Source: Vitis vinifera (taxonomy: Eukaryota; Streptophyta; Magnoliopsida; Vitales; Vitaceae). From it: DNA of 64,000 nt. The position numbers and the translations under genes were made by a program. Positions 13,443 to 64,000 of the stretch are shown here, piece after piece. The notes beneath the pieces are model-generated. The model worked only from the letters and a program-made list of their open reading frames with translations. It was not told the DNA's origin and searched no databases. The stretch spans positions 7,269,001 to 7,333,000 of the forward strand of contig NC_081821.1 in assembly GCF_030704535.1 (NCBI RefSeq), read 5' to 3'. Numbering within the stretch: position 1 is the first letter of the stretch; every line of letters starts with the position of its first letter.

Positions 13443-14453
13443 TTAGAAGCCCCTCAGTGTTTGGATGATGGTGTTGTGCCATGGGTCTGAGATGTGCTGC
13501 AAGAGGTTGTCAAATGGCCCTTTTCCAGTCACGTTGTGTTGAACAATAAACCCCAGGAATGCCAACATTGCTAATCTCCCTGAGAAATGGATATTCACTC
13601 AAGATTAGCACAATTCTATAAAACAAAGTAATAGTTCTGAGCAGGGTTGTTAGAGCAATTTTTCTTTTTACCGTTAGCAAGTTCCTTTTCCTTGGCCTCC
13701 TCAGTTGGTGCAAAGTTCAGGGGGTTGAAAATACCACCGGGGTAACCCACCTCATTGGGAGGTAAGCTGTAGTTCTTGAAAATGGGGTCCTGGTTCACAC
13801 TTCCTGGGTTCTTGATGTCCTGCCACCTTCTGATCTCGACGTAGTGGAACAAGATGAACTCGATCACAAAGAGGGTAGAAGATGATGCGAAGTACTCCGC
13901 TTTCCCTGCATCATACCACTGGGGGGCATTGATGATCCCTATCTTTGTAAAAACTTCCGGCAGCAGCATTCCGGCAACCCCTAACATCGCCCATCTACTG
14001 TTCACAAGCTCAGCCTGCACGTACCATTTCAAGTTCTCGGGGTCCTCCGCAAGCCCCAGAGGATCAAAACCATTGTCACCAGGAAGACTGCACCCAACCA
14101 ACAAACATTTGTTTCAGTTGAACTGGTCACAACACCAGGATTCATCAAAGTTTCACACAAATAATGCTTGGTCACTTTGTCAAAAGTTCGGAGTTGCGAC
14201 TTAAGCAGATAATAGAGATTATAGATTGAGTTGGGTGGCAAATTTACCTTCCATCGAGGTAAGATGGGGAAGACAGGCCGGGCAACCACTCCCCTTTCTT
14301 GGCCTCCACCTTGAAGGACCTGTATGACGAAGAGGTCATGGGTTTTACAGATACTTCTCGACCCAGTTTACCGGAGGACCCAGTGAGGAACCTCGATTTG
14401 GAGGCGCATGGCCGGAAGACGGCGGCGGAAGCTTGGGTGGTGACAGTGGCCAT
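13443..14453 (-). CDS. LHCA4: photosystem I chlorophyll a/b-binding protein Lhca4
   Basis: Minus-strand exons 14248-14453, 13672-14087 and 13443-13579 join to 252 aa, the usual Lhca4 length. Residues 1 to about 50 form a Ser/Thr/Lys-rich chloroplast transit peptide, and mature sequence starts near KKGEWLPGL. The three-helix LHC fold is clear: helix B motif [17 protein letters not shown] (residues 94-110), a central helix [16 protein letters not shown], and helix A with EKELANGRLAML. Asn98 sits where most LHC proteins have His as the chlorophyll-603 ligand. This substitution is known in Lhca3/Lhca4 and underlies the red-shifted chlorophylls of the PSI antenna. Lhca4 pairs with Lhca1 in the thylakoid LHCI belt. 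Light-type promoter elements lie about 200-330 bp upstream. No defect is seen, and it appears functional. Confidence 0.96.
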
Positions 14454-15758: not shown

Positions 15759-16741
15759 CTAGGTGAACTGTGACCCACTAAAGGTCTGGCCAAAGGACCA
15801 GCCAGCAGGGACAACATTGTTTGAGACAGCGGTTCGCCCATCGCTTAAGGTCACCTTGAAGGAGAGGCTCTGTCCGTTGAGGTAGGAGTTGCTTTGCCAG
15901 TTCTGACCCCAGTTCCTAGACATGGGTTGCCAACCTGTTTTTGACCCTTTGATGGAAACACTGTGGACATCACCAGCACCTCCAACGTTGGATATCAGTA
16001 CTAAGTTGAAGTAAGAATGGCCATTCATGGTGAACCTGATGCCTCCTTTCTTGATGCAGGGTACCCTACGGAAAAACAGGGGAAACAGAGAATTAATGCG
16101 GTAACAAACTGAGTAAAGACAAAACAAAGAGACCCATCTAGGCCACAGCACAAACAAACAAAAAAGGAAAAAGGAAAAAAAATTCCTACTGCATACCTTC
16201 TGTAGGAGACTGGAACAATCCCAGCTCTGTACTCTGCAATCCTTTCAAAGACAGGCTGAGAGAGGTCAAAATGTTGTTGGGGAGGGTTGCACCACCCTCC
16301 TGCATTGTTTGGGAGGGCATTGTTTGGAGGGCAGAAGTTGGTGGCTGTGACCGTAATAGAGCCAGAACGACACCACCTTGGGTCATTCGCACACCTAATC
16401 TCGAAACAAGCACCACAGCTCAACCCACTGTTGAATAAGGCTGTGCTCAAAGCTGCAGTGTTGGTCCCATATCCCTGGCTGTATAAGTTTCCATAACCAC
16501 AAGCCCCACCTGCATATAAGGGCAACAAATTAGTTATATAGAAAGGTGACTTGGGCACAGAAACATGGGATAGAACCAGACAGGACGCATATGAAGTTGT
16601 TTTAATCAACTTACCCATTGTTCCAGAGGCATCACCCCCTCCATAGAAAGTGGCATGAGCATCAGTCCAACCACCTGCATCCCCTTGAACAGATGAGAGC
16701 AGAGAGAATAACCCCACAAGCAGAAACCCAAGAAGAGACAT
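15759..16741 (-). CDS. EXPA: alpha-expansin (EXPA), 3 exons
   Basis: Minus-strand exons 16615-16741, 16197-16509 and 15759-16065 join to 248 aa, normal for an alpha-expansin. A signal peptide (residues 1-20, ending LSSVQG) directs secretion to the wall. The double-psi beta-barrel domain carries [15 protein letters not shown] (43-57), the CGACFEIRC cysteine region, TATNFCPPN and the HFD motif (122-124). The C-terminal binding domain has aromatic residues and ends [12 protein letters not shown]. Both introns sit at standard EXPA positions. Expansins loosen cell walls by a non-hydrolytic action at acid pH. The short [20 protein letters not shown] region resembles the EXPA2/EXPA8 subgroup; the exact orthologue is not assigned. 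Confidence 0.96.
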
Positions 16742-16907
16742 TTTCCTGCATAGAGAAGTGAGTTTTCAGTACAATTATTGTAACTCTCCCCAGCTTCAAC
16801 AACTTGGAGAAGAGAAAAATAGCTTCATATAGACCAACCTTGAGAGAGAGAAAGAGAGAAAGTGTGAAGAGGAGGATTTGTGGGGAAATGGGCAGGGTGT
16901 GGAGGGG

Positions 16908-20699: not shown

Positions 20700-21330
20700 T
20701 CAAAAAGTTGAACCAAACAAGACTCATCCTTGTTCATTGGCTAATGGTTATTGGTCTTTGAAATGACCTTTAGACGGGCTTGTGTGGGTTTCTAACGAGG
20801 GCAAGCCTATTTTAGGCCCCATGGAGAATCAAGGTTCAGAGGACAAGCCCATGACAATATGGGCCACGCAACCGTGAGAGGCAAGATTGATAGATTGGAA
20901 AGAGAGGGCCCATGGCTTCCATCAAATTTTGTGGCCCATGAGGAGGGAATTAGCGGGCGCTCAAAGTGGTTAATAACTGGGCTTGAAACAGGCCAGGGCT
21001 TCGAGAATAGTGTGGCCCAAACCCAACTTCCCACATTCCCTTCAACTTAGTTATTTCAAATGAGATACAGTTCTAGTTTTATGATTTTATAGAAACTATA
21101 AATATTTTCCAATTGTATTTTTCATTTTAAGAATATTATACATATTTATCAATTCTAGTTTTATATTTTTACTAGTAATTATTGGTAAAAACCTAATAAT
21201 TGTATAATAATAAGTGGAAAACTTTTTTTTGATGATTTTTCAAAGAGTTTCAATTGTTTTTCAATTTTTGTAGGTGAGATAGGAAAGATATTGGTTTTCA
21301 GGAAGAAAAATAGAACCTGGGTTTCTATAT
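20700..21330 (+). repeat. copy 1 of a duplicated TGGGCC-rich segment
   Basis: This segment is homologous, in the same orientation, to 22510-23145. Shared landmarks run in the same order: TTGGCTAATG, GACCTTTAGAC, GCAAGCC, GGCCCCATGG, GGAAAGAGAG, GCTTCCATCAAA, AAGTGGTTAA, AACTGGGCTTG, GGCCCAAACCCAACT, GATGAGATACA-like words and a final AGGAAGA region. It contains many TGGGCC/AGCCCA words. The copies are clearly diverged. It may be a transposon fragment or a duplicated promoter region. Confidence 0.75.
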
Positions 21331-22509: not shown

Positions 22510-23145
22510 GTCAAACCACATAGGGATAAGTCATCGTTCTTCGTTGGCTAATGTGTACTGCGTTCAAGTGGACCTTTAGACAGGCCATGGTGGGTTTCCC
22601 ACAAAGGCAAGCCCGTTTTGTGGCCCCATGGGTTCTCAAGATTGGGATGACAAGCCCATAAAAATATGGGCAACGTAACTGTGAGAGCCCATGATTGGCT
22701 GGAAAGAGAGAGCCCATAGCTTCCATCAAACTTTGTGGGCTCTCAGCCCACAAGGAGTCAACTAGTGGGCACTGAAAGTGGTTAACAACTGGGCTTGCAA
22801 CAGGTCAGACTTGGAGAATGGTCTGGCCCAAACCCAACTGCCTACATTCACTGAACTGTTGTTTTCGGATGAGATACAATTCTACTTTTATTATTTTATA
22901 GAAATTATTAATATTTTCTAATTTTATTTTTAATTTTAAGAATATTCAAATATTTATTAATTCTAATTTTATTTTATTTACTTTTAATTAAAAGTTAAAA
23001 AATCAATAATTGTATAATTATAAGTAAGATAACTTTTTCTTTTTTTTTTTTAATTTGTCAATGAGTTTTAATGGCTTTCCAATGTTTGTAGGTGAGATTG
23101 GAAAGTTGTTTGCTTCAAGAAAGAAGAATAGAACGTGGATTTCTA
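22510..23145 (+). repeat. copy 2 of the duplicated TGGGCC-rich segment
   Basis: Homologous to 20700-21330, offset by about 1.81 kb. It lies directly upstream of the probable snoRNA-cluster promoter, so the copy may contribute site-II type elements to that promoter. Confidence 0.75.
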
Positions 23146-23167
23146 CTTTAAAATTTATTGGCATTGC

Positions 23168-23724
23168 ATATGGGCTTGATTTCTTTGATTAGTGGGCTTA
23201 AACAAATTGTTAAACAAAGCCCAAGCTAGACAGCCTTGAATAAGACAAGGGCATAATTGAAAAAGGCAAACAACATATGGAAATAATAATAATATTATAT
23301 AGAAAACATAAGGGCAAAGGGGCAAATTATTTCCTTCTTTTTCAGATCAACGGTTCTGATCTCACAGCGCTCGGTGTGTTATCATGCGCCGCCTCAATGT
23401 TCCTGCCCTAGTTCTCTCAACGGTATATATCTTAGCAGCTGGCACTCCGATCCCCAGATCCAGGGTAGATTATTAGGCCGACCCAATTAGGGTTCCTTCA
23501 TCGCTAGCGAAGGTTATCGATGGATTTCTTGAAAATGCTATTTGCTTTGTTCATCGAGTGCCATTGCTGATACCGGATTAGGGGTTTAGCCTTCTTGAAA
23601 CGATGTGATCTTTTGAACTTAGGGTTTTCCCTACTTTCCCCCCCTGTTTTCTGGGCTTTTGAGTCGATTCAAGATTTGTTTTTGTTTTATCAGTATGGCC
23701 TTTCTGATATCCACTTAGGGTTTT
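23168..23724 (+). promoter_or_regulatory. site-II and telo-box elements of a probable snoRNA-cluster transcript
   Basis: Three site-II cores (TGGGCT at 23171 and 23193; AGCCCA, its reverse, at 23218) are followed by a TATATAT word (23424) and telo-box words TTAGGGTT (23487), TTAGGGTTTT (23619) and TTAGGGTTTT (23715). In plants this pairing is characteristic of genes for ribosome biogenesis, including independent snoRNA clusters. The C/D-box candidates begin about 480 bp further on. The transcription start was not determined. Confidence 0.5.
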
Positions 23725-23943
23725 AGCCTGCATCGATCGTAAAAAGGTGCGATTTTCTTAAACAAATTCTTAGTTTATATGCTGGGGATATTTCTTTTGT
23801 TTTTCTTGGCTTTTGTTTTGATTAAACTCCCCACGTTTGTTTGTGGGATAGACCCATTGTCTCTATTAGCTTGCTACAAGGTTTTTTCTTTCTTTTTTTG
23901 CTTGCTTGTTTTCTGTTTCTGATGTTTTGGAGAATCAAGCATG

Positions 23944-24010
23944 TGCCTGTGATGGTTTTAAATATACTTTGAGGGTTATACCTATGAAAAGAATTTTAAT
24001 CTGAGGCGTA
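23944..24010 (+). ncRNA. weak C/D-box snoRNA candidate
   Basis: A box-C-like GTGATGG (23949-23955) and box D CTGA (24001-24004) are flanked by bases that can pair (TGCC with GGCG, with wobble extension). Internal words TTGA and TATGAAA could be D' and C'. The predicted guide has no rRNA match that I recognise. It is listed because it lies in the same cluster as three stronger candidates. Confidence 0.25.
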
Positions 24011-24205
24011 CTCTTTTTCTTGTGTTTTCAATTTTCTTGGCTACCTTAGTTTGGTTTTCTTTCCTCTTCTATTTTCTATTCTCCCAAACGGTCCTTCATG
24101 CAAGCTTTTGTTTTGTTTTAAAGATTGGATTTGTAAGGTATCATGCACTGTTGGAGATGGTATCATATTTTAGAAAAATGGCTTTGATTACATAATGGTG
24201 AGAGC

Positions 24206-24288
24206 ATGCAAGTGATGTTAAAGCAGACAGGGACATCTGCACTCTTTAGGAGATTGATGACTTGTTCTTGGGAATCTCTCTGATGCAT
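24206..24288 (+). ncRNA. C/D-box snoRNA candidate A (25S rRNA guide)
   Basis: The terminal stem is ATGCA (24206-24210) with TGCAT (24284-24288). Box C is GTGATGT (24212-24218, one off consensus), D' CTGC (24237-24240), C' TTGATGA (24254-24260) and D CTGA (24280-24283). The guide before D (TGGGAATCTC) and the guide before D' (AGACAGGGACA) are both complementary to the conserved 25S stretch GAGATTCCCACTGTCCCTG, at sites about 11 nt apart. This is a double-guide 2'-O-methylation snoRNA and a paralogue of candidate B. The 25S sequence is from memory. Confidence 0.72.
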
Positions 24289-24467
24289 TCCATATTTTTC
24301 TACAATGTCAAACAAATAATATGAGGCATTTCATATTTAGTCCTTTCTAATCTGATTATTTGAACCTATCTGATTGTAGGGTTGGGAAGGATGGTATGTT
24401 AATTTGATTCGTGTACAGTGAAATATTGGTTAGGTTGGTATTGGACTATCTGCTGGTATCAGTATGG

Positions 24468-24553
24468 TTGTGCAAGTGACGATATCAGACAGGGACATCA
24501 GCACCTCCAATGGAGAATGATGATTTGTCTTTGGGAATCTCTCTGATGCACAA
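24468..24553 (+). ncRNA. C/D-box snoRNA candidate B (paralogue of A)
   Basis: A perfect 7-bp terminal stem TTGTGCA/TGCACAA encloses box C GTGACGA (24476-24482, one off consensus), a degenerate D' CAGC (24499-24502), a perfect C' ATGATGA (24517-24523) and D CTGA (24543-24546). Both guides are the same as in candidate A, while the rest has diverged. This shows selection on guides and boxes after a local duplication about 262 bp apart. Confidence 0.75.
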
Positions 24554-24830
24554 GCATATTGCTTGATATACTTTCACTGTTAATATGAAAATTAGGTTAA
24601 TTTTCACATTATTTTTCAAATAATGTTTCTTAGCCTCTGCATTTGTGTGCAATTTAGCATATGCAACATGGTAATTATTGATTTTCAAACTCATTTTTTC
24701 ACATCAAAATGTACATTTGTGGGCTATTTTTAGTTTTGGAAGTTGTTTTTCACCCTTTTGGTGGCTTTGCTTGAGTGGGTTTTTCTTAATCTGTGAAGCA
24801 TTTGATGAGCACCTAAAACAGATACCATGG

Positions 24831-24911
24831 TGTGCCAATGATGCATTTAAATGCACGTATTATCAGAGATCAAGAATGATGATACACCATTGTCACTACC
24901 TCTGAGGCATA
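24831..24911 (+). ncRNA. C/D-box snoRNA candidate C (18S rRNA guide)
   Basis: The terminal stem TGTGCC/GGCATA (one G-U) encloses box C ATGATGC (24838-24844), C' ATGATGA (24876-24882, perfect) and box D CTGA (24902-24905). The 13 nt before D, ATTGTCACTACCT, are fully complementary to the conserved 18S segment AGGTAGTGACAAT. By the D+5 rule the target is the A in GGTAGTG. This 18S site is methylated in several eukaryotes. The 18S sequence is from memory. Confidence 0.75.
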
Positions 24912-26268
24912 ACCATCTGTACTTGCAATCAGACCAAGACTTCTTTTATAAAAAAAATTTCCTTGTCTGCCTAAAAATCCTAGGCATTTTTTCTTCTGAT
25001 TGATGATGCTTGCTGGTTTTCACTTGGGTGATTTGAGGTATGGATGATTTTGAAATTGTTAAAGGTTTCATGAGAATTATGCTGATTTTAATGTTGGATT
25101 TCAAGCAAAGTTTTGGGAAGAGGCCTGATGATTGTTAACATAAGAACGGAAATTTGAATGGTGCTCTTTGTAGTAGCCTGACCGTAAATTGGGCTCCAAA
25201 AGAATCATATGTAATAAACGGTTCTATATGGAATATGAAGGCTCAAATTTCTACTTTTCACTTGCTTGAAATCCATAGTGTTTGTGAATTGAATGCAGGA
25301 GGTTGCGCGATAGGGTGCAGGTGAGTTGGCCTAACCCAACTCAAGCCCAGCATGCTGTTTGGGCAGGTTGAGTTTAGGTTTAAGTTTTCTCAACTTGAGC
25401 TCAATATGGGTTGGGCCAAGGTTGAGACAATCTCGGTTAACTTGAATTCAATTTAATGTTTTGTATTATATTTATTATCTTATATAATAATATTTTTTTT
25501 TTTAGATTTAAAAAAAAAAATCAAATTATAATTAATATCATATGCTTTTTTTTCATTTTTATAAAGATATATAAGTTTATTTAATTTTTATATTGTTATC
25601 TTAAAGTTTTGTGGTATTTATTATTTTTAAATTTTGGTATAAAAGTCGATAGAAAAAAAAAAAAGTTATTGAAAAGCCACAATAGTTAGATTTTGAATCA
25701 ATCTGAATATAGCCTTAGCAATCCGAGTTTAACTTGATCAATCTAAGCTTTTGCTCAATCTTGAATTTGGGTTGAGTTGGTTTAGAGGTTAGGTTGAGGT
25801 TGAGTTTGGTTGAATTTTTTTTAATTTGGGTTGGACTTGGTGTAGCCATTGATCTGCCCAGGGTGCACCTTCCCTCTCGGGATTGTATTTCCAGATACAA
25901 GAGGATGCCTTTGATTATAGGTAAATGACTTCAATAATGAAATGGATGAATATACGGGCGTCTTTTTTTATTCACATTCAACCCAAACAAAGGTCATATA
26001 TTTAGTACGAATGTAAAGAAGATTGGGGAAGGCATCAACTGTGATTGAATGCATGGACTTGAAATATTCAACTGACAATGAATAAAGCTACTTGGATTAT
26101 TTTAATTTGAATACAACATGTGGGGCTGAAATTGATACTATTCAATTCATTTACACAACCAATTATGACTCGGGCACAGTCAGTCATGACTCAGCCATGG
26201 CCATCACATGCATAATTTATGAAAATTATAATGAATTTAATATAAATTATTAGCACGAGTGTGTTTCA
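24912..26268. other. intergenic; low-complexity repeat at 25.3-25.9 kb
   Basis: No gene is seen. The part 25320-25859 is rich in GGGTTGAG/TTGGGTTG words with an AT-rich core and is flanked by AGGGTGCA at 25312-25319 and 25860-25867. The 8-bp direct repeat could be a hAT-type target duplication, but matching terminal inverted repeats are not evident. Confidence 0.3.
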
Positions 26269-35160: not shown

Positions 35161-36171
35161 CTATATAGGGGCCTTCCCAATTGGCTTGAAACTTTCCTGC
35201 TCCTGTCTCTTAGCAGTGTTTTCGAAAACCTTCCTAAGGACCAACGTTCCACTTTTGAAGCTCTTGGGCCTTACCTTGCGATTGTAGTGAGCGACTGCCC
35301 TTTGTTGATAGTCGGCCATCCGGATGGATGCGGTCTCTCTTACTTCGTCTGCCCAGTCCAAATTTCTTCCTAATTCCGCATTTGCATCATCCTGCCGTCC
35401 TGCCTCGGTCCGGATAGTGGGTAACTCTATTTCTGTAGGAATGACTGCGTCTATACCGTATGCGAGGGCGAAGGAAGTGTTTCCTATCGGACGTCCGGGT
35501 GTGGTTCGATAAGCCCATAGGATGCTGGGTAGCTCCTCCACCCACTTCCTTTTGGCTTGCTCAAGCCTCTTCTTTAAGGCAGTTATTAGGGTCTTGTTTG
35601 TGGTCTCTGCTTGCCCATTGCTTTGAGGATAATGCGGTGTGGAGTATGAATTCCGGATGTTTAGTTCCGAACAGAAATTCCGGAAAGCGATGCTATCAAA
35701 CTGTGGACCGTTGTCAGCTATAATGGTTTGGGGGATTCCAAAGCGGCAGATGATGTTCTTCCATACGAACTTGGTGACATCTTTGTCTTTGATGCTAGCG
35801 TATGCTTCAGCTTCCACCCATTTATTGAAGTAATCCGTGGCGACGAGCAGGAATTTTTTCTGGGCAGCTGTGGCTGGTAGGGGTCCTACTATGTCCATGC
35901 CCCACTACGCGAAGGGCCAGGGGCCTGAAACTGGTTTCAACATCTTTGACGGCACATGCGGTATGGGGGCATGCCTTTGACACTTGTCACATTTTTTGAC
36001 ATAAGCTGCCGCATCTTTTTTCATTGTGGGCCAGTAATACCCTTGCGAATGGGCCCTGTGCGCCAGAGATCGACCTCCGGAATGGTTCCCACATACCTCC
36101 TCATGCAACTCAGCTAATACATACAGGGCCTCTGAGTGGTTTAGGCACCTGAGATAGGGACCTGTAAAGGA
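35161..36171 (-). pseudogene. integrase of gypsy element 1
   Basis: The HHCC zinc-binding region (HEEVCGNHSGGRSLAH ... CDKCQRH, 36108-35905) is cut by a TAG just before WGMDIVGPLPA. The sense codon was probably CAG. The catalytic core then follows in frame: ATDYFNKW (first Asp), IADNGPQF (second Asp) and NGQAETTNK (Glu), and ends at 35161. It would insert element cDNA into the host genome. No chromodomain is seen. A second stop separates it from the upstream RNase H part (GHLYK-stop at 36172). Confidence 0.9.
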
Positions 36172-37191
36172 CTATTTGTACAAGTGCCCCCCGATCAGGG
36201 TGAAACGGGCAGATTGTACCGGAGTCTTGTGTGCCTGCTTGGGCTCTTCGGGCAGAGTGCTTGTCCGGAGATACCTTATTATGTCTTCCGCCCACTCTTG
36301 GTCGTCTGCTTGGTTTGCCTCAATGGTATTGCAAGTGGAGGTTTCCGCGACGGAAGGGTTGGTTTGCACATGTATAGGCAATAATATGGCTTCTTTGATG
36401 GGGAGGGAAGCAGCTATGCCTGCCAGGGCGTCGGCACGTCCATTTTCAGTCCGTTTAATTTTTTCGATTGTCCATTCGGTGAACCGTTGTAAGGTGTCCC
36501 TTACTTTAGTTAGATATCGCGTCATGCGCTCATCCTTAGCTTCGTATTCCTTCTGGACGTGCCTTACCACGAGTTGGGAATCACTATAGACCCGGAGCCT
36601 GGAGACGAATAGAGCCAAGGCGAGGTCCAACTCGGATAGGATGGCCTCATACTCCGCTTCATTGTTAGAGGCGGGGAATCCCAGTTGGATAGCTTGCTCC
36701 AAATGTTCTCCTGTTGGGGATTGCAGCAGGAGCCCTACACCGGATCCTGATGACCGGGAGGCTCCATCAACCCGCAAAGTCCACCACTCCACTCCGCTTG
36801 GTTCCTTGCGCTGGGTAGATCTTCGAGAGTATTCCAACACAAAGTCAGCTATCACTTGGCCTTTCATGGATAACCTGGGTTGGAACTCGATTCCATATTC
36901 GCTCAACTCTATGGCCCATTGAAGCATTTTTCCGGTCAGGTCTGGCTTGTGCAGGATCTTGCGAAAGGGTTGGTCGGTTAGCACGACCACCGGGTGGGCT
37001 TGGAAGTAAGGGCGGAGCTTCTGGGCGGCACTTCGAAGGGCCAAGGCCATTAGCTCCATCTTTGAATACCTTGTTTCTACGTCCGCCAACGCTTTGCTGA
37101 CGTAGTAAATAGGTTTCTGCTCCTTGGGCGAGGGGCAGCGGAATAGAACAGCGCTAATTGCCCACTCCGATACAGCCAGGTACATATACAA
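36172..37191 (-). pseudogene. RNase H and second (archaeal-like) RNase H of gypsy element 1
   Basis: The first RNase H begins at the frameshift near 37190 (LAVSEWAISAVLFR, KPIYYVSKAL, RYSKMELMALAL, IADFVLEYS). A second RNase H domain follows: WTLRVDGASRSSGSGVGLLL, ASNNEAEYEAILSEL, YSDSQLVVRHVQ and ENGRADALAGIA. Such a dual RNase H is diagnostic of the Tat group of plant gypsy elements. The frame is shifted by one base relative to the RT part. Confidence 0.92.
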
Positions 37192-38381
37192 TTTTCTCTA
37201 GGGAGGAGGCTGCTTAGAATGGGCGGATGCATGAGGCAATGTTTAATTTTTTCGAAAGTGCTCTGACAGCTGTCCGTCCATCCGCTTGCTCCAGCTTTTC
37301 GTATTGCCAAGAAGAAGGGTCGCAGTTCATCAGTGAAGCAGGCTATAAAGCGTCCTAGCGCGACGAGCTTGCCTGTGAGACGCTGTAATTCCTTTTTGCT
37401 CCTGGGGGATGGTGTTTCCATGACTGCCTTAACTTGATCCGAGCTAACCTCTATCCCCCTTTGGCTGACCATAAATCCCAGGAATTTGCCAGCACTTACG
37501 CCAAAGGCGCATTTAGAAGGATCCAACTTCATGCCATATTTCCTTAAGAGGTGGAAGACTTCTTGCAAGTGGAGGGTATGTTCCTCTCTGGTTTTGCTTT
37601 TGACCACGATATCGTCAATATATACCTCCACTGTGCTGCCGACCAGAGGTTTGAAGATCTTCGTCATTAGTCTCTGATAAGTGGCGCTAGCGTTTTTGAG
37701 TCCAAACGGCATGACTTTGTAGCAATAAAGACCATATGGCGTTATGAAAGCTGTCTTTTCTTCGTCGGCCGGGGCCATGAGGATTTGGTGGTATCCGGAG
37801 AAAGCATCCAAGAAGGAGAGCATCCCTTGCCCAGCAGTGGAGTCTATAATTTGGTCTATCCGTGGCAGAGGGAAACTGTCTTTTGGGCATGCATTATTGA
37901 GGTTGGTGTAATCAACGCACACTCGCCATTTGCCTTCCTTTTTGGGTATCACTACTACATTTGCCAACCAGTCCGGATGTTCCACTTCTCTAATGAATCC
38001 GGCTTCTAGCAACTTGTCAATCTCATCCCTGATAATTTTTTGCCTGTCCGGGTGAAAACGTCTAACCCTCTGTCGGACGGGTCTTGCTGTTAGCAAGACG
38101 TTAAGCCTATGAGAGACGATGGAGGGGTGAATTCCCTTCATATCAGAATGCGCCCATGCGAAGATGTCATGGCTTTGTCGGAGGGCGTCTTGGATGTTCC
38201 GGGTCTTTTCAGGCTTCAAGAGGGAACTGATATATGTAAGGTGAGTACCTTTTTCCGAAATTTGGATCGCCTGCAAGGGATCCACTGCCGGGGGATCTTT
38301 GTCCGCAGGACTCAGTAATTGCTATTGGTCAAGTGCATGGGTGGACTCAGGGAGGGGTTTATCCTCCTGGCTAGTCCCTAC
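37077..38381 (-). pseudogene. reverse transcriptase of gypsy element 1
   Basis: RT motifs occur in order: WLANVVVIPKKEGKWRVCVD, LPRIDQIID, LSFLDAFSGYHQI, MPFGLKNASATYQRLM and the catalytic YIDDIVVKS, then LGFMVSQRGIEV. It copies element RNA into DNA. The stretch is open from 38285 down, but an in-frame TAG (near 38320) and a TAA (38382-38384) separate it from the protease, and a one-base shift near 37190 ends it prematurely. Confidence 0.94.
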
Positions 38382-39194
38382 TTATCGTGCTATCTGATAG
38401 CATTGGCGAGCGGCTAACTGGCTGCCGTATAGGTTGATTTGCCCATCCTCGGTAAGAAAGCTTACCATTTGATGGTACGTAGAGGGGATGACTTTCATGT
38501 AGTGCAGCCATGTGCGCCCCAAGATGACATTGAAGGGTGATAAATCTTGTACCACCGAAAATTGTACGTTGAGAGTGACTGGGCCAGCTTGGACCGGCAA
38601 TACAATATCTCCTAAGGAAGTAGTTGTCGCTCCGTTGAATCTGGACAAAATTCGCCCAGGGTTTTCGAGGCCTATTAGATTGCGTCCCATGTGGCTAATT
38701 ACCGATGCTTGTACAAGATCGGCCGAGCTGCCCGGGTCAACCAGGATGCGTCTCACGTCGAAGTCTCCCATCTCCAGGGACAGGATGAGGGAGTCGCGGT
38801 GCGGCTGCAATATCCGTGTGGGGTCTACTGGTGGGAAAATGATTGTCCCATCTATGGGGCGAGGGCCCCTCCCAGTTATCCCAGGCCGTATGGAGTTGAC
38901 GCGCTCACGCATCGATGTTGCCCGCAACAACCTCTGTCTCTTCCGTTTGGAGTCATATTCATCGTCCAATGGGCCTCCGTTGATATAGTTTATAATGGCT
39001 TTGGGGACGGCTGGAACCCTGGGGGTTCCAGAGTTGTGATTTCGGGAAGCGTCTCTACCTCTGGCGTCTGAGCGGAGGTATTGCTTCAAATGTCCTGCCC
39101 TTATGAGCTTTTCAACCAAATAATGGAGGCTCCTGCAGGTCTCCGTTGTGTGACCATGCTCCTTGTGGTAGACACATTTTTTACTATGATCCAT
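38382..39194 (-). pseudogene. gag C-terminus and aspartic protease of gypsy element 1
   Basis: A zinc-binding stretch CVYHKEHGHTTETC near the start is the nucleocapsid part of gag. The protease follows, with active-site ILVDPGSSADLV (Asp-Pro-Gly in place of the usual DTG/DSG) and a later FNVILGRTWLH. Its frame differs from the upstream gag part, overlapping at 39184-39194. Confidence 0.88.
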
Positions 39195-40218
39195 CTTGGA
39201 TCACAGGGAGTAGCTTCTCATAGGATATGGAAAGAGGTGTGAGGGGCGGCGGTTCCGGGCGGCTTTGTTCTTCCTGCCTTCGACTGGACGGCCTTGGCCG
39301 GTCCGGGAGTTTTACATTTCTTTCTGCACCACTTCTGGATGCCTGTCCGGCAACAAAGATTTGTTGGGTGGCTGCTCGCACGTCATTTTCGAGCATTGAG
39401 TATTTGCTCGCGCGCCGGAACAAGTCGTCTATCGTCGTAGGAGGCTTCTTAGCTAGCGATTCAAAGAATGGGGTGCCTAGACAGATGCTTCGCTTGAAGA
39501 TCTGCAGGACAACATCCATGCTGTAAGCCTCTACTTGTAACACTTTGCATAGCAGCACGTCGTTTCCTATATCCAGAGTCATGAGTTGTCGATAATGCAT
39601 GATGTGGTCGAAGGGGTCGCTGGACCCATCATACGTGGAGAATTTAGGCACAATGAATCCCCTTGGGGGGTCATAATGAACAATATGAGAGCAAAAAGGC
39701 GTGGAGAGCATGTCGTCCAGCCTTTTGCTGATGGAGCCAATGGGTGGCTCGTTTGGGAGGTTTCTCCCAGCTTGGCGTAATGCTTGGTGCGGGAAGACGT
39801 TTTGCACCATGGGAGTGACCAGAGGGTCAGGGTGCACTCCCCAGGTATTGGCTACTGGTGGGCTTGTCTTCCTAGGTTCTTGTGGGCCTAGCCTCACGCG
39901 GATCGCGTCTGACAACTGGGGTCTCTTGTCACGCTGTCTCTTTGACAAGAGACGAGTAGAGTCCGAGCTTTCCTCCTGGGGAGCTTGGTGCATAGGCGTG
40001 TGTCGCTCTTGTGGCCTAATGTTGCATGTTTCAGGGATAGATCCTACTGTCCCAGGGTATATTGACTCTAGGTCAGGCCTTGAGTTTGCTCCCTGGCCTC
40101 TTGAGCGCTGACCGCGAGGAGGCCCCGTCGATGAAGCCTGGATGCGCAACACAACGTTTTCTTCTCTCAATCTCACTGTCTCTTGGAGGAGAGCCTGCAT
40201 TTGTTGCTCGCTTGCCAA
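39184..40218 (-). pseudogene. gag of gypsy element 1, core deleted
   Basis: The start MASEQQMQALLQETVRLREE and KFSTYDGSSDPFDHIMHYRQ are typical gag. After LLCKVLQVEAYSMDVVLQIF the text jumps to FFESLAKKPPTTIDDLFRRA, so most of the central capsid-like region found in related elements (the part that contains the WF/FG...RE block) is missing. It ends out of frame with the protease part. Confidence 0.85.
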
Positions 40219-49337: not shown

Positions 49338-49515
49338 TTTATCTCTGTAGAAAAATTGGGTGATGGGATCTGGATTTTTTTGGTTGATGTATTGGTTTTG
49401 TGCTTTCGGGTGGAGAGGGAAAGCGGATAAGGAGATGATTTGTATCCACCTATAAATCTATCAGAAGCATTTAGCTTTTTGTATTTATAAAAATATTTCA
49501 AAATCTAAAAACCGT

Positions 49516-49589
49516 GGCCTATTAGCTCAGTTGGTTAGAGCGTCGTGCTAATAACGCGAAGGTCGCAGGTTCGAGACCTGCATGGGCCA
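49516..49589 (+). tRNA. trnI-AAU: tRNA-Ile (AAT anticodon)
   Basis: The 74-nt sequence folds as a cloverleaf: acceptor GGCCTAT/ATGGGCC (one G-U), D-arm with TAGCTCAGTTGGTTAGAGC, anticodon loop CTAATAA with AAT, and T-arm GCAGGTTCGAGACCTGC. The internal A and B boxes are intact and there is no intron. A TTTT terminator lies 7 bases after the discriminator A. It is nuclear type, since CCA is not encoded beyond the natural CCA overlap. Confidence 0.97.
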
Positions 49590-51164
49590 AAAAAACTTTT
49601 CCTAACCATTTCCTCTTTATGCATCTTGTACTCTTTTGAGTCCATGAATTATTATTATTTAAAAAAGAGAAAAAACTATTTTTGCATCTATTATTATATG
49701 TTTGCTAACTATACCATTTTTTAGAAAGTATTTATGAGTATAATTCAAGTTTTCGATCAATTTACTAAGAAGGTTTACTATTAATTTGGATAATGCGTCA
49801 CTTATGAATACCATTTATCACTATTATGTATTGTATATGTGAAGTCTTGATATATCATCATTTATCTAACTATTTTCTCATTATTAATGGTATATTATTC
49901 CGACTTTATATAACAAAGTCTTTATATATCATCATTTTTCTATCTAATCTCGATACATCATTTTTTTTTTGTCTAACTATTTTCTCATTATGTATGGTAT
50001 ACTCTTTTTAGGTGATTGTTTTTTTTTTTAAAGAAAAAAATAACTATTTTGTATTGGATTTTACATATTTGCTAGCTATATCTTTTTTAAAAAAGTAAAT
50101 TTTAGTTTTGGACCAATTCCCTAAAAAATATTTTGATTGCTCTTCTAGAATGACTTACTTGTAGTTTGGACAATCCATCAATCTACGAAGGCACCATTTA
50201 TTATTATTAGACAAATTCCTTCTTTTGTTTTTCTACACTAACTTCCATTTTGATATATCATATCCAATCAATCAGTGGAAAAATTCAAACATCCATCATT
50301 TATTTAGAAGTGAGTGTCACATCAAGAATTCACACATTGGTGACTTTTTTTTTTGTGTGAACAAATTTGTAGTTTTATATGATGTTATGAGCCTTTTTCA
50401 ACAAGTAACATTCCCTAATGCCCTTCCCTTCGATAAGCCTTTTTTCTTATGCATATACACTTCTAGTTTTTTTTTTGGTTATTCTTAATCTTTTTCAATA
50501 AGCCTCGCCCCATTTTTTATAAAGATATGGAACAAAATTGTGAAAATGACTAATTAAATTAAGTAGAAAAAGAAAGAGAGAATAAATTAGGTGTTAATTT
50601 TTTTTTTAAATTCAATTTATATTAATAGCAATGAATAAACCAATAATAAATCAAAGAGATTAAAAGAAAGAAATCTACAAACTCATTTACGGTGGTTCAA
50701 TAGTCTACTTATGTCCACTCTCCTTAAATCCTTAACAAAGTGAAGATTTCAACTATCACTGAAACTTTTAGGTTAAAGCGTTCAACTTTCTTACATTTGA
50801 ATTATTAGACTCCAATAAACCTTGATGGTTTCTTCAAATGTACAATTAACTTGAAGTTTACCCCCTCACAATGAGTAAATAAAAAAATATTTAATATCTC
50901 CAATCTTAAAACAAATGTAGCTCATGATACAAAGGAAAGTTAGGTTGGATTTGAAATGTACACTAAAGAATTTGCAAGTAGAAAATCAATGCATATGTAA
51001 GAAGAGCTTTGAAAATGAGAAAATAGAGGCTTTCTAATTGAAGGTAATTGTTCTCATATCATAAATGTAGTAGAACAATTCGATTTATAGGTTTTTAATT
51101 CGGGAACCCAAAAAGTTGCAAAAACACCTTGATCGGTCAAAGCATTAGTTCGACCAAGCATTTA
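49590..51164. other. AT-rich intergenic region
   Basis: No gene was found. Repeated words such as TATATCATCATTT and CTAACTATTTTCTCATTA around 49850-49995 indicate a small local duplication. Confidence 0.5.
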
Positions 51165-61327: not shown

Positions 61328-64000
61328 TCAAACATAGTACTTCTTTAGCTGATCCACATTGGTTGGCTCTGAGAATCGGTTTCCATCTAAATCCATCAAC
61401 CATGCAGCGCCCTCTGGGGTCAACTCCCTGATGAAATAAGGTCCGCTCCAGTTGGGTCTGAACTTCCCTCTAGGATCTCTGATCAATCCCCTGATGACTT
61501 TCAGAACCAAGTCACCTATCCGTAATGGTCTAGGCCTGACCCGCTTTTTGAAAGCGCGGGTCATCTTCCTCTGATACGCACGAACATGGTCTGCAGCTCT
61601 CAATCTCCTCTCATCTAGGAGATTGAGCTGATCAAATCGAGCCTGAGCCCAATCTGCCTCGGGAATCTGCTGCTCTAGTGCTACTCTCAACGAGCCCATC
61701 TCAATCTCAACGGGTAGCATCGCCTCCATGCCATATACCAAGGAGTAGGGTGTGGCGCCTGTAGAGGTGCGAAAAGAAGTCCGATAAGCCCACAATGCAA
61801 ATGGGAGCTTCTCTGACCAATCCTGAGAAGTCTCGACCATCCTCCGTAATATCCTCTTGATATTCTTATTCGCGGCCTCTACTGCCCCATTCGTCTGCGG
61901 CCTGTAAGCAGACGATCTATGATGCCGGATGCTGTATCTCTGTACTAAGGTGTCAACCTCTGCTCTGAAATGTACTCCTCTATCTGAAATCAACTCATGA
62001 GGGACTCCATAGCGGCAGATAATGTGTGATCTGATGAAACTAGCAACTCCAGCTGATGTCAACCTCGCATATGAAGCGGCCTCCACCCACTTGGTGAAGT
62101 AATCGATGGCGACCAGGATGAACTCATGACCATTGGAAGATTTCGGTGAAATCTTCCCGATGATATCAATACCCCAGACGGAAAATGGCCATGGTGAAGT
62201 CAAAGCGTGCAGCTCGGACGGTGGCACGTGAATGAGGTCCCCATGTATCTGACACTCGGGACATCTCTGAACAAACTGGCAGCAATCCGTCTCCATGGTC
62301 AACCAGAAGTAACCGGTCCTCATGATCTTACGAGCCAACATATGTCCTCCCATATGTGGTCCGCAGACTCCCGCATGAACCTCTCTCATCACTCGATCGG
62401 CAGAGGTGCGGTCCAAACATAATAGTAGCATCCCATCAGGCGATCGTCTATACAATGTCTCGCCATAGATGACGAATCGGGTAGCCAACTGTCTCAATGC
62501 TCTCTTATCCTTGGCCGTGGCAGCCTCAGGATATACGCCAAGTCTCAAGAAGTGATATATGTCATGGTACCAGGGCAGACCATCGTCTATCTCTGCATCA
62601 TCGATCAGGCAACAATAAGCAGGAGCGGATCTCGACTCGATCAACAAAGGTCGAACAGTGGCGTCAACGGGAATGTCGATCATGGAAGCTAGAGTAGCTA
62701 AAGCATCAGCAAACTGGTTCTGCGCTCTAGGCAGATGGGTATATCTCAAGTCACCAAATCTCCTAACCAGTAACTCCAAATATGCATGATAAGGCTTAAG
62801 CTTCACATCTCTAGTCTTCCACTCGCCCTGAACCTGTCTCAATACCAGATTGGAGTCACCAAACACCTCCATCTGCCTAATCCCGAGCTCGAGGGCCGTC
62901 TCTAATCCCAAGATACAAGCCTCATACTCAACAATGTTGTTCGTGGCAGGATGTCGATCCGAGAATGCCAAACGAACAGATCTGGGAATGTGATCACCGT
63001 GAGGGGATATCAACAAGACGCCTATCCCATATCCGGAATGGTTGGCCGCGCCATCAAAGTACATGCGCCAACCTGACAGACTAGTCACAGCAGCGACATC
63101 CTCGTCTGGAAAATCATCGTCAATAGCTCTGGCATCAGAAACTGGTAATGAGGCTAGATGATCTGCTACAATGCTCCCTCTGATGGACTTCTGAGTGACA
63201 TAATGGATGTCAAACTCAGTAAGAAGTACCAGCCATCTCATAAGGCGACCAACCAGAGCGGGTCTGTCAAACAAATATCTCAGAGGATCCAAGCGAGATA
63301 TCAAAGGCACGGAATACTCGGTCATGTAATGTCTCAACCGGCGAGTGGCCCAAACCAATGCCAAACAATAACGCTCAATCATGACATACCTCGTCTCGTA
63401 GTCTAACATCCTCTTACTCAAATAGTAAATGGCTCAATCCTTGCCCGAATCATCGAGCTGAGCTAACATGCAACCCAAGGCCACGTCTGATACGGACAAG
63501 TATAAGAGTAGAGGACGGCCTGGTGTAGGAGGCGCTAGAACTGGAGGCGACAACAAGTACTCCCTGATCCTCTCAAATGCGCGCTGACACTGATCATCCC
63601 AAACAGTAGGTTGACTCTTCCTCAAGAGTCGAAATATGGGCTCGCAGATGTCTGTCAATCTGGCTATGAATCTACTGATGTACTGAAGTCTGCCCAGGAA
63701 GCCTCTGACCTCTCTCTCTGTCCTCGGCGCAGGCATGTCAAGAATGGCTCTAATCTTGTCCGGATCTACCTCTATGCCTCGCTCACTGACCATGTATCCT
63801 AAGAGCTTCCCAAAAGTCACTCCGAAAGTGCACTTCTTGGGATTCAGTCTCAATCTGAACTGTCTGGTCCTCTCAAAGAACCTCTCAAGAGCTGCCAAAT
63901 GATCTGATCTATCTCGGGATTTCACTATCATGTCGTCTACGTAAACCTCGACATCCCGATGCATCATGTCATGGAAGAGTGTGGTCGCTGCTCTCTGATA
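61328..64000 (-). pseudogene. pol of gypsy element 2 (RT C-part, RNase H, second RNase H, integrase)
   Basis: Reading is open from the window edge down to 61328 except for one TGA at 63434-63436 (GKD-stop-AIYYLSKRML), probably a decayed CGA. Domains in order are: RT with YVDDMIVKS and LGYMVSERGIEV; RNase H with AIYYLSKRML and VADHLASLPV; second RNase H with MYFDGAANHSGYGIGVLL, NNIVEYEACILGL and FADALATLAS; integrase HHCC zinc region, IAIDYFTKWVEA-type first Asp, ISDRGVHF second Asp and NGAVEAANK Glu; and a C-terminal KFRPNWSGPYFI tail ending DQLKKYYV. No chromodomain is seen. With a single stop it is far better preserved than element 1 and may be recent. Confidence 0.93.

Follow-up and report, generated by a model that had tools for sequence, protein, structure and literature searches.

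Does the interval at positions 24206-24911 of a 64,000-nucleotide stretch of Vitis vinifera DNA (contig NC_081821.1, positions 7,269,001 to 7,333,000; hereafter the window) hold a gene for small nucleolar RNAs (snoRNAs), or is it empty intergenic DNA? The original prediction, made from the letters of the sequence, favoured a snoRNA gene and described three C/D segments with paired ends and boxes C, C' and D. Using Rfam covariance models, we identified four box C/D snoRNA genes, all on the + strand within 970 bp and each above its family cut-off in cmscan, which supports that view. Judged from sequence, the locus is very probably an ordinary plant C/D snoRNA cluster of four genes, likely read as one shared transcript and guiding ribosomal RNA (rRNA) methylation.

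The four snoRNA genes

All three of the segments described earlier matched Rfam plant families, and the family search of the region added a fourth gene upstream, snoZ267, which had been missed. The genes and their boxes are as follows:

23940-24012, + strand: snoZ267 C/D snoRNA (RF00344, 64.6 bits, cut-off 43); box C 23949-23955, D' guide 23958-23967, D' box TTGA 23969-23972, box D 24001-24004
24205-24289, + strand: snoR44 copy a (RF00357, snoR44_J54, 74.6 bits, cut-off 48); box C 24212-24218, D' guide 24225-24236, D' box CTGC 24237-24240, C' 24254-24260, D guide 24269-24278, box D 24280-24283
24469-24552, + strand: snoR44 copy b (RF00357, snoR44_J54, 79.4 bits, cut-off 48); box C 24476-24482, D' guide 24487-24498, D' box CAGC 24499-24502, C' 24517-24523, D guide 24532-24541, box D 24543-24546
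24833-24909, + strand: snoR122-family C/D snoRNA with a SnoR17-type D guide (RF02407, 44.6 bits, cut-off 36, cmscan); box C 24838-24844, D' guide 24853-24863, D' box CAGA 24864-24867, C' 24876-24882, D guide 24889-24901, box D 24902-24905

The cmscan E-values of these neighbouring genes were 4e-14, 6.8e-13, 7.4e-11 and 8.8e-4. As expected of C/D snoRNAs, which are roughly 70-100 nucleotides (nt) long, boxes C and D are closed by a terminal stem and enclose internal C'/D' boxes, and rRNA complementarity of about 10 nt or more adjoins box D or D'. No additional snoRNA turned up on either side: 23400-23950 had no match in Rfam up to E 2, and 24900-25400 had only a weak match to a bacterial small RNA (E 0.59). 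A perfect 14-nt inverted repeat (25095-25108/25262-25275, arms separated by 153 nt) raised the possibility of another gene; the predicted fold of 25095-25275 had a z-score of −2.59 and was equalled by 4 of 200 shuffles, and the region matched no snoRNA family in Rfam.

A probable shared transcript and its candidate promoter

Several snoRNAs lying close together on one strand, with Site II elements and telo boxes ahead of them, have the layout of a plant polycistronic snoRNA gene. The putative control and processing elements are:

23171-23223, no strand assigned: three Site II elements, TGGGCT at 23171 and 23193 and AGCCCA at 23218 (motif as in PMC4660826)
23424-23429, + strand: TATATA box candidate (motif search)
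23487-23723, − strand: four telo-box motifs, with first bases 23487, 23582, 23619 and 23715 (motif search)
24581-24626, + strand: two adjacent AT-rich hairpins (inverted repeats), between snoR44 copy b and the snoR122-like gene

In PMC4660826, the pair of Site II and telo box marks plant polycistronic snoRNA promoters and is sited upstream of the TATA region. Within 23100-23760, a test stretch picked after the sites had been seen, the count of four telo boxes was reached by none of 2000 dinucleotide shuffles, and no other place in the window has four in 661 bp. The same stretch contains four Site II elements (23171, 23193, 23218 and 23652), a number reached in 9 of 2000 shuffles. This arrangement, together with the four genes on one strand, supports the polycistronic cluster that had been proposed, and the four snoRNAs probably come from one common transcript. 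Transcription would start just downstream of the TATATA candidate, and one shared precursor would give rise to four guide RNAs and through them to methylation of 18S and 25S rRNA. Both hairpins form when 24440-24630 is folded computationally (z −1.98, with 8 of 200 shuffles folding equally well) and are a possible precursor processing site.

Alternatively, a spliced host gene, most likely a non-coding one, may carry the snoRNAs in an intron or in several introns and free them by splicing and debranching, not by the cutting of a polycistron. Splice-like sites can be picked by eye (e.g., tgcag/GAGG near 25300), and a leader or first intron would be another suitable place for telo boxes that follow the TATA candidate. 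Against this, no Pfam match was found in the 15 open reading frames (ORFs) tested, out of 54 of at least 60 amino acids in 17.0-31.2 kb, in keeping with the predicted lack of a protein host; the tested set includes all four + strand ORFs overlapping 23.4-25.3 kb but not two − strand ones there. In addition, plant snoRNA clusters are described as sharing a common promoter in PMC4660826, though intronic snoRNAs are mentioned there too. We consider an intronic origin unlikely, and a polycistronic transcript remains the preferred reading.

Guides, probable targets and copy number

Target pairing was assessed on ribosomal DNA (rDNA) copies. A 115-nt 25S query found five degraded places in the genome, three of which were taken as loci L008, L009 and L010, and an 18S pattern found one place, L011, a degraded copy that is 1,024 bases long and has lost internal sequence. 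These four loci are degraded, dispersed rDNA copies of the same genome. A further 18S 5' fragment, L001, came from a metagenome-assembled genome contig in a search of genome contigs. The 25S fragments had no match in viral contigs, plasmids or phages.

The D guide common to both snoR44 copies, TGGGAATCTC, pairs 10/10 with GAGATTCCCA in two of the three degraded 25S copies (L009 and L010), L008 being altered at the site; this is in keeping with the predicted match of these two segments to 25S. Their D' guide is AGACAGGGAC. Of its target region, the Rfam large subunit (LSU) consensus has GUCCCU, L008 and L010 have the adjoining TGTCTAC, and L009 has a gap. The full D' match is given only by a presumed plant 25S fragment. 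On the LSU consensus, the guide positions fifth from boxes D and D' pair with an A and a C that are separated by 11 nt. This spacing equals the distance between Arabidopsis 25S A2327 and C2338, both assigned to SnoR44, a dual guide, in PMC8053127.

The snoZ267 D' guide forms 10 Watson–Crick and one GU pair with the genome's own 18S copy (GTATATTTAAG); in PMC8053127, Arabidopsis 18S U604 belongs to SnoR115. The D guide of the snoR122-family gene, which had likewise been claimed to match 18S, pairs 13/13 in L011, or with 14 Watson–Crick pairs of 15 when two box D bases are counted, and its 14-nt Watson–Crick run with this copy was equalled in 2 of 500 shuffles. The paired A is tentatively taken, by counting, to be 18S A468. 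Taken together, these pairings indicate that the RNAs of the cluster most likely direct methyl marks onto rRNA.

The D' guide of the snoR122-family gene raises a further possibility. Its candidate 18S U is position 167 in L011 by count, or 171 if scaled to A468. The duplex is interrupted by one base in both L011 and L001, and none at the U near 167-171 was among the best duplexes listed; a full match is given only by a presumed plant 18S sequence. A search with the guide pattern found 21 places (control, 8), and in that register CAGA followed only in the window copy and CTGA in none. A table in PMC2780460 gives Neurospora 18S Um167 for both snoR122 and human U45, and PMC8053127 assigns Arabidopsis 18S A468 to SnoR17 and lists SnoR122 as an orphan without a target. 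Tentatively, the gene may therefore encode a two-target snoRNA, with a snoR122-type D' guide for the 18S U near 167-171 and a SnoR17-type D guide for A468; this reading is possible but weak because the D' duplex is interrupted in L011 and L001 and Arabidopsis SnoR122 is counted as targetless. If it were true, snoR122 and SnoR17 would share a single ancestor among guide RNAs, and Arabidopsis SnoR122 would be an orphan because the D guide had been lost in its lineage.

The snoR44 copies do not differ in their guides or in box D and show one or two changes in each of boxes C, C' and D'. Specifically, box C reads GTGATGT in one and GTGACGA in the other, each one base off RTGATGA, and D' reads CTGC vs. 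CAGC. Alignment of their flanks scores within the range of shuffles (300 each), with 38 upstream (shuffle mean 32, maximum 51) and 39 downstream (shuffle mean 33, maximum 53). Guides and box D that are identical while the flanks are unlike suggest selection on both copies, and the pair suggests an old duplication with both copies retained. Across the assembly (495.6 Mb in 21 contigs), where family counts may be lower bounds, these two were the only RF00357 matches at E 0.001, and snoZ267 and the snoR122-family gene were the single matches to RF00344 and RF02407, the latter scoring 29.3 bits, below its cut-off of 36. Decay of one or more of the four genes into a pseudogene copy would fit the differing snoR44 boxes and this low whole-genome score (above the cut-off, at 44.6 bits, in cmscan), but it is improbable given the conserved snoR44 guides and box D between unlike flanks and the failure to find, in counts that may be lower bounds, other genome copies that could substitute. 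A bare motif scan averages 2.3 matches per shuffled 64 kb (maximum 7), but chance C/D-like motifs in AT-rich intergenic DNA are refuted for practical purposes, since three in the interval arose in only 1 of 2000 shuffles, and the Rfam E-values of four neighbours range from 4e-14 to 8.8e-4.

Several observations weigh against the reading as an ordinary polycistronic methylation-guide cluster. No intact rDNA was found in the assembly with the patterns used, an exact 41-nt pattern of presumed 25S sequence giving 0 matches; L008, L009 and L010 each differ from the presumed 25S fragment within the D' target, so the snoR44 D' target is intact in none of the three and a full D' duplex was seen on none. 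Site numbers come from copies other than an Arabidopsis rRNA, and the A assumed to be A468 is base 464 in L011 but base 472 in L001. All four telo boxes follow the TATATA candidate, whereas such elements precede the TATA region in PMC4660826, and consequently the true transcription start may be elsewhere. Looser Site II/telo pairs, no more than 1 kb apart, are common elsewhere in the window. Site II elements are denser at 20846-21014 (six) and 22653-22825 (seven), where Rfam has no snoRNA, which makes the motif alone weak evidence. The ORF translations over these dense groups (20807-21046 and 22511-22804, − strand) resemble each other, and they may represent a repeated element.

Among the ORFs tested, the nearest Pfam matches on one side are an expansin (15759-16765, −) and a chlorophyll a/b-binding protein (13616-14113, −), and on the other side retrotransposon polyprotein pieces from 35.2 kb. 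These comprise integrase, RNase H and reverse transcriptase with a weak, below-cut-off protease at 35164-39200 (−); RNase H and integrase recur at 61331-63433 (−). A transfer RNA gene, tRNA-Ile with anticodon AAT, lies at 49515-49590.

Comparison with known systems

Both the snoRNA families and their mechanism are already known, as is this type of cluster, and such clusters are ordinary in plants. The snoZ267 gene matches RF00344 over its full length, its conserved D' guide fits the 18S U near 603-604, and it shows no notable difference. Both snoR44 copies match known snoR44/J54 at full length and share its dual guides with 25S targets 11 nt apart; they differ in forming a tandem pair and in their non-canonical D' boxes, CTGC and CAGC. 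The remaining gene has the boxes and D' guide of snoR122 (RF02407), whereas its D guide is off the consensus and is preceded by a 7-nt insertion; by guide target it is likened to Arabidopsis SnoR17, the D guide fitting the 18S site taken as A468. Rice cluster 53 is snoR44-snoR17-snoR147a (PMC5122169). In the window, too, snoR44 neighbours a gene that carries a SnoR17-type guide, and the unit is best read as a counterpart of the rice cluster.
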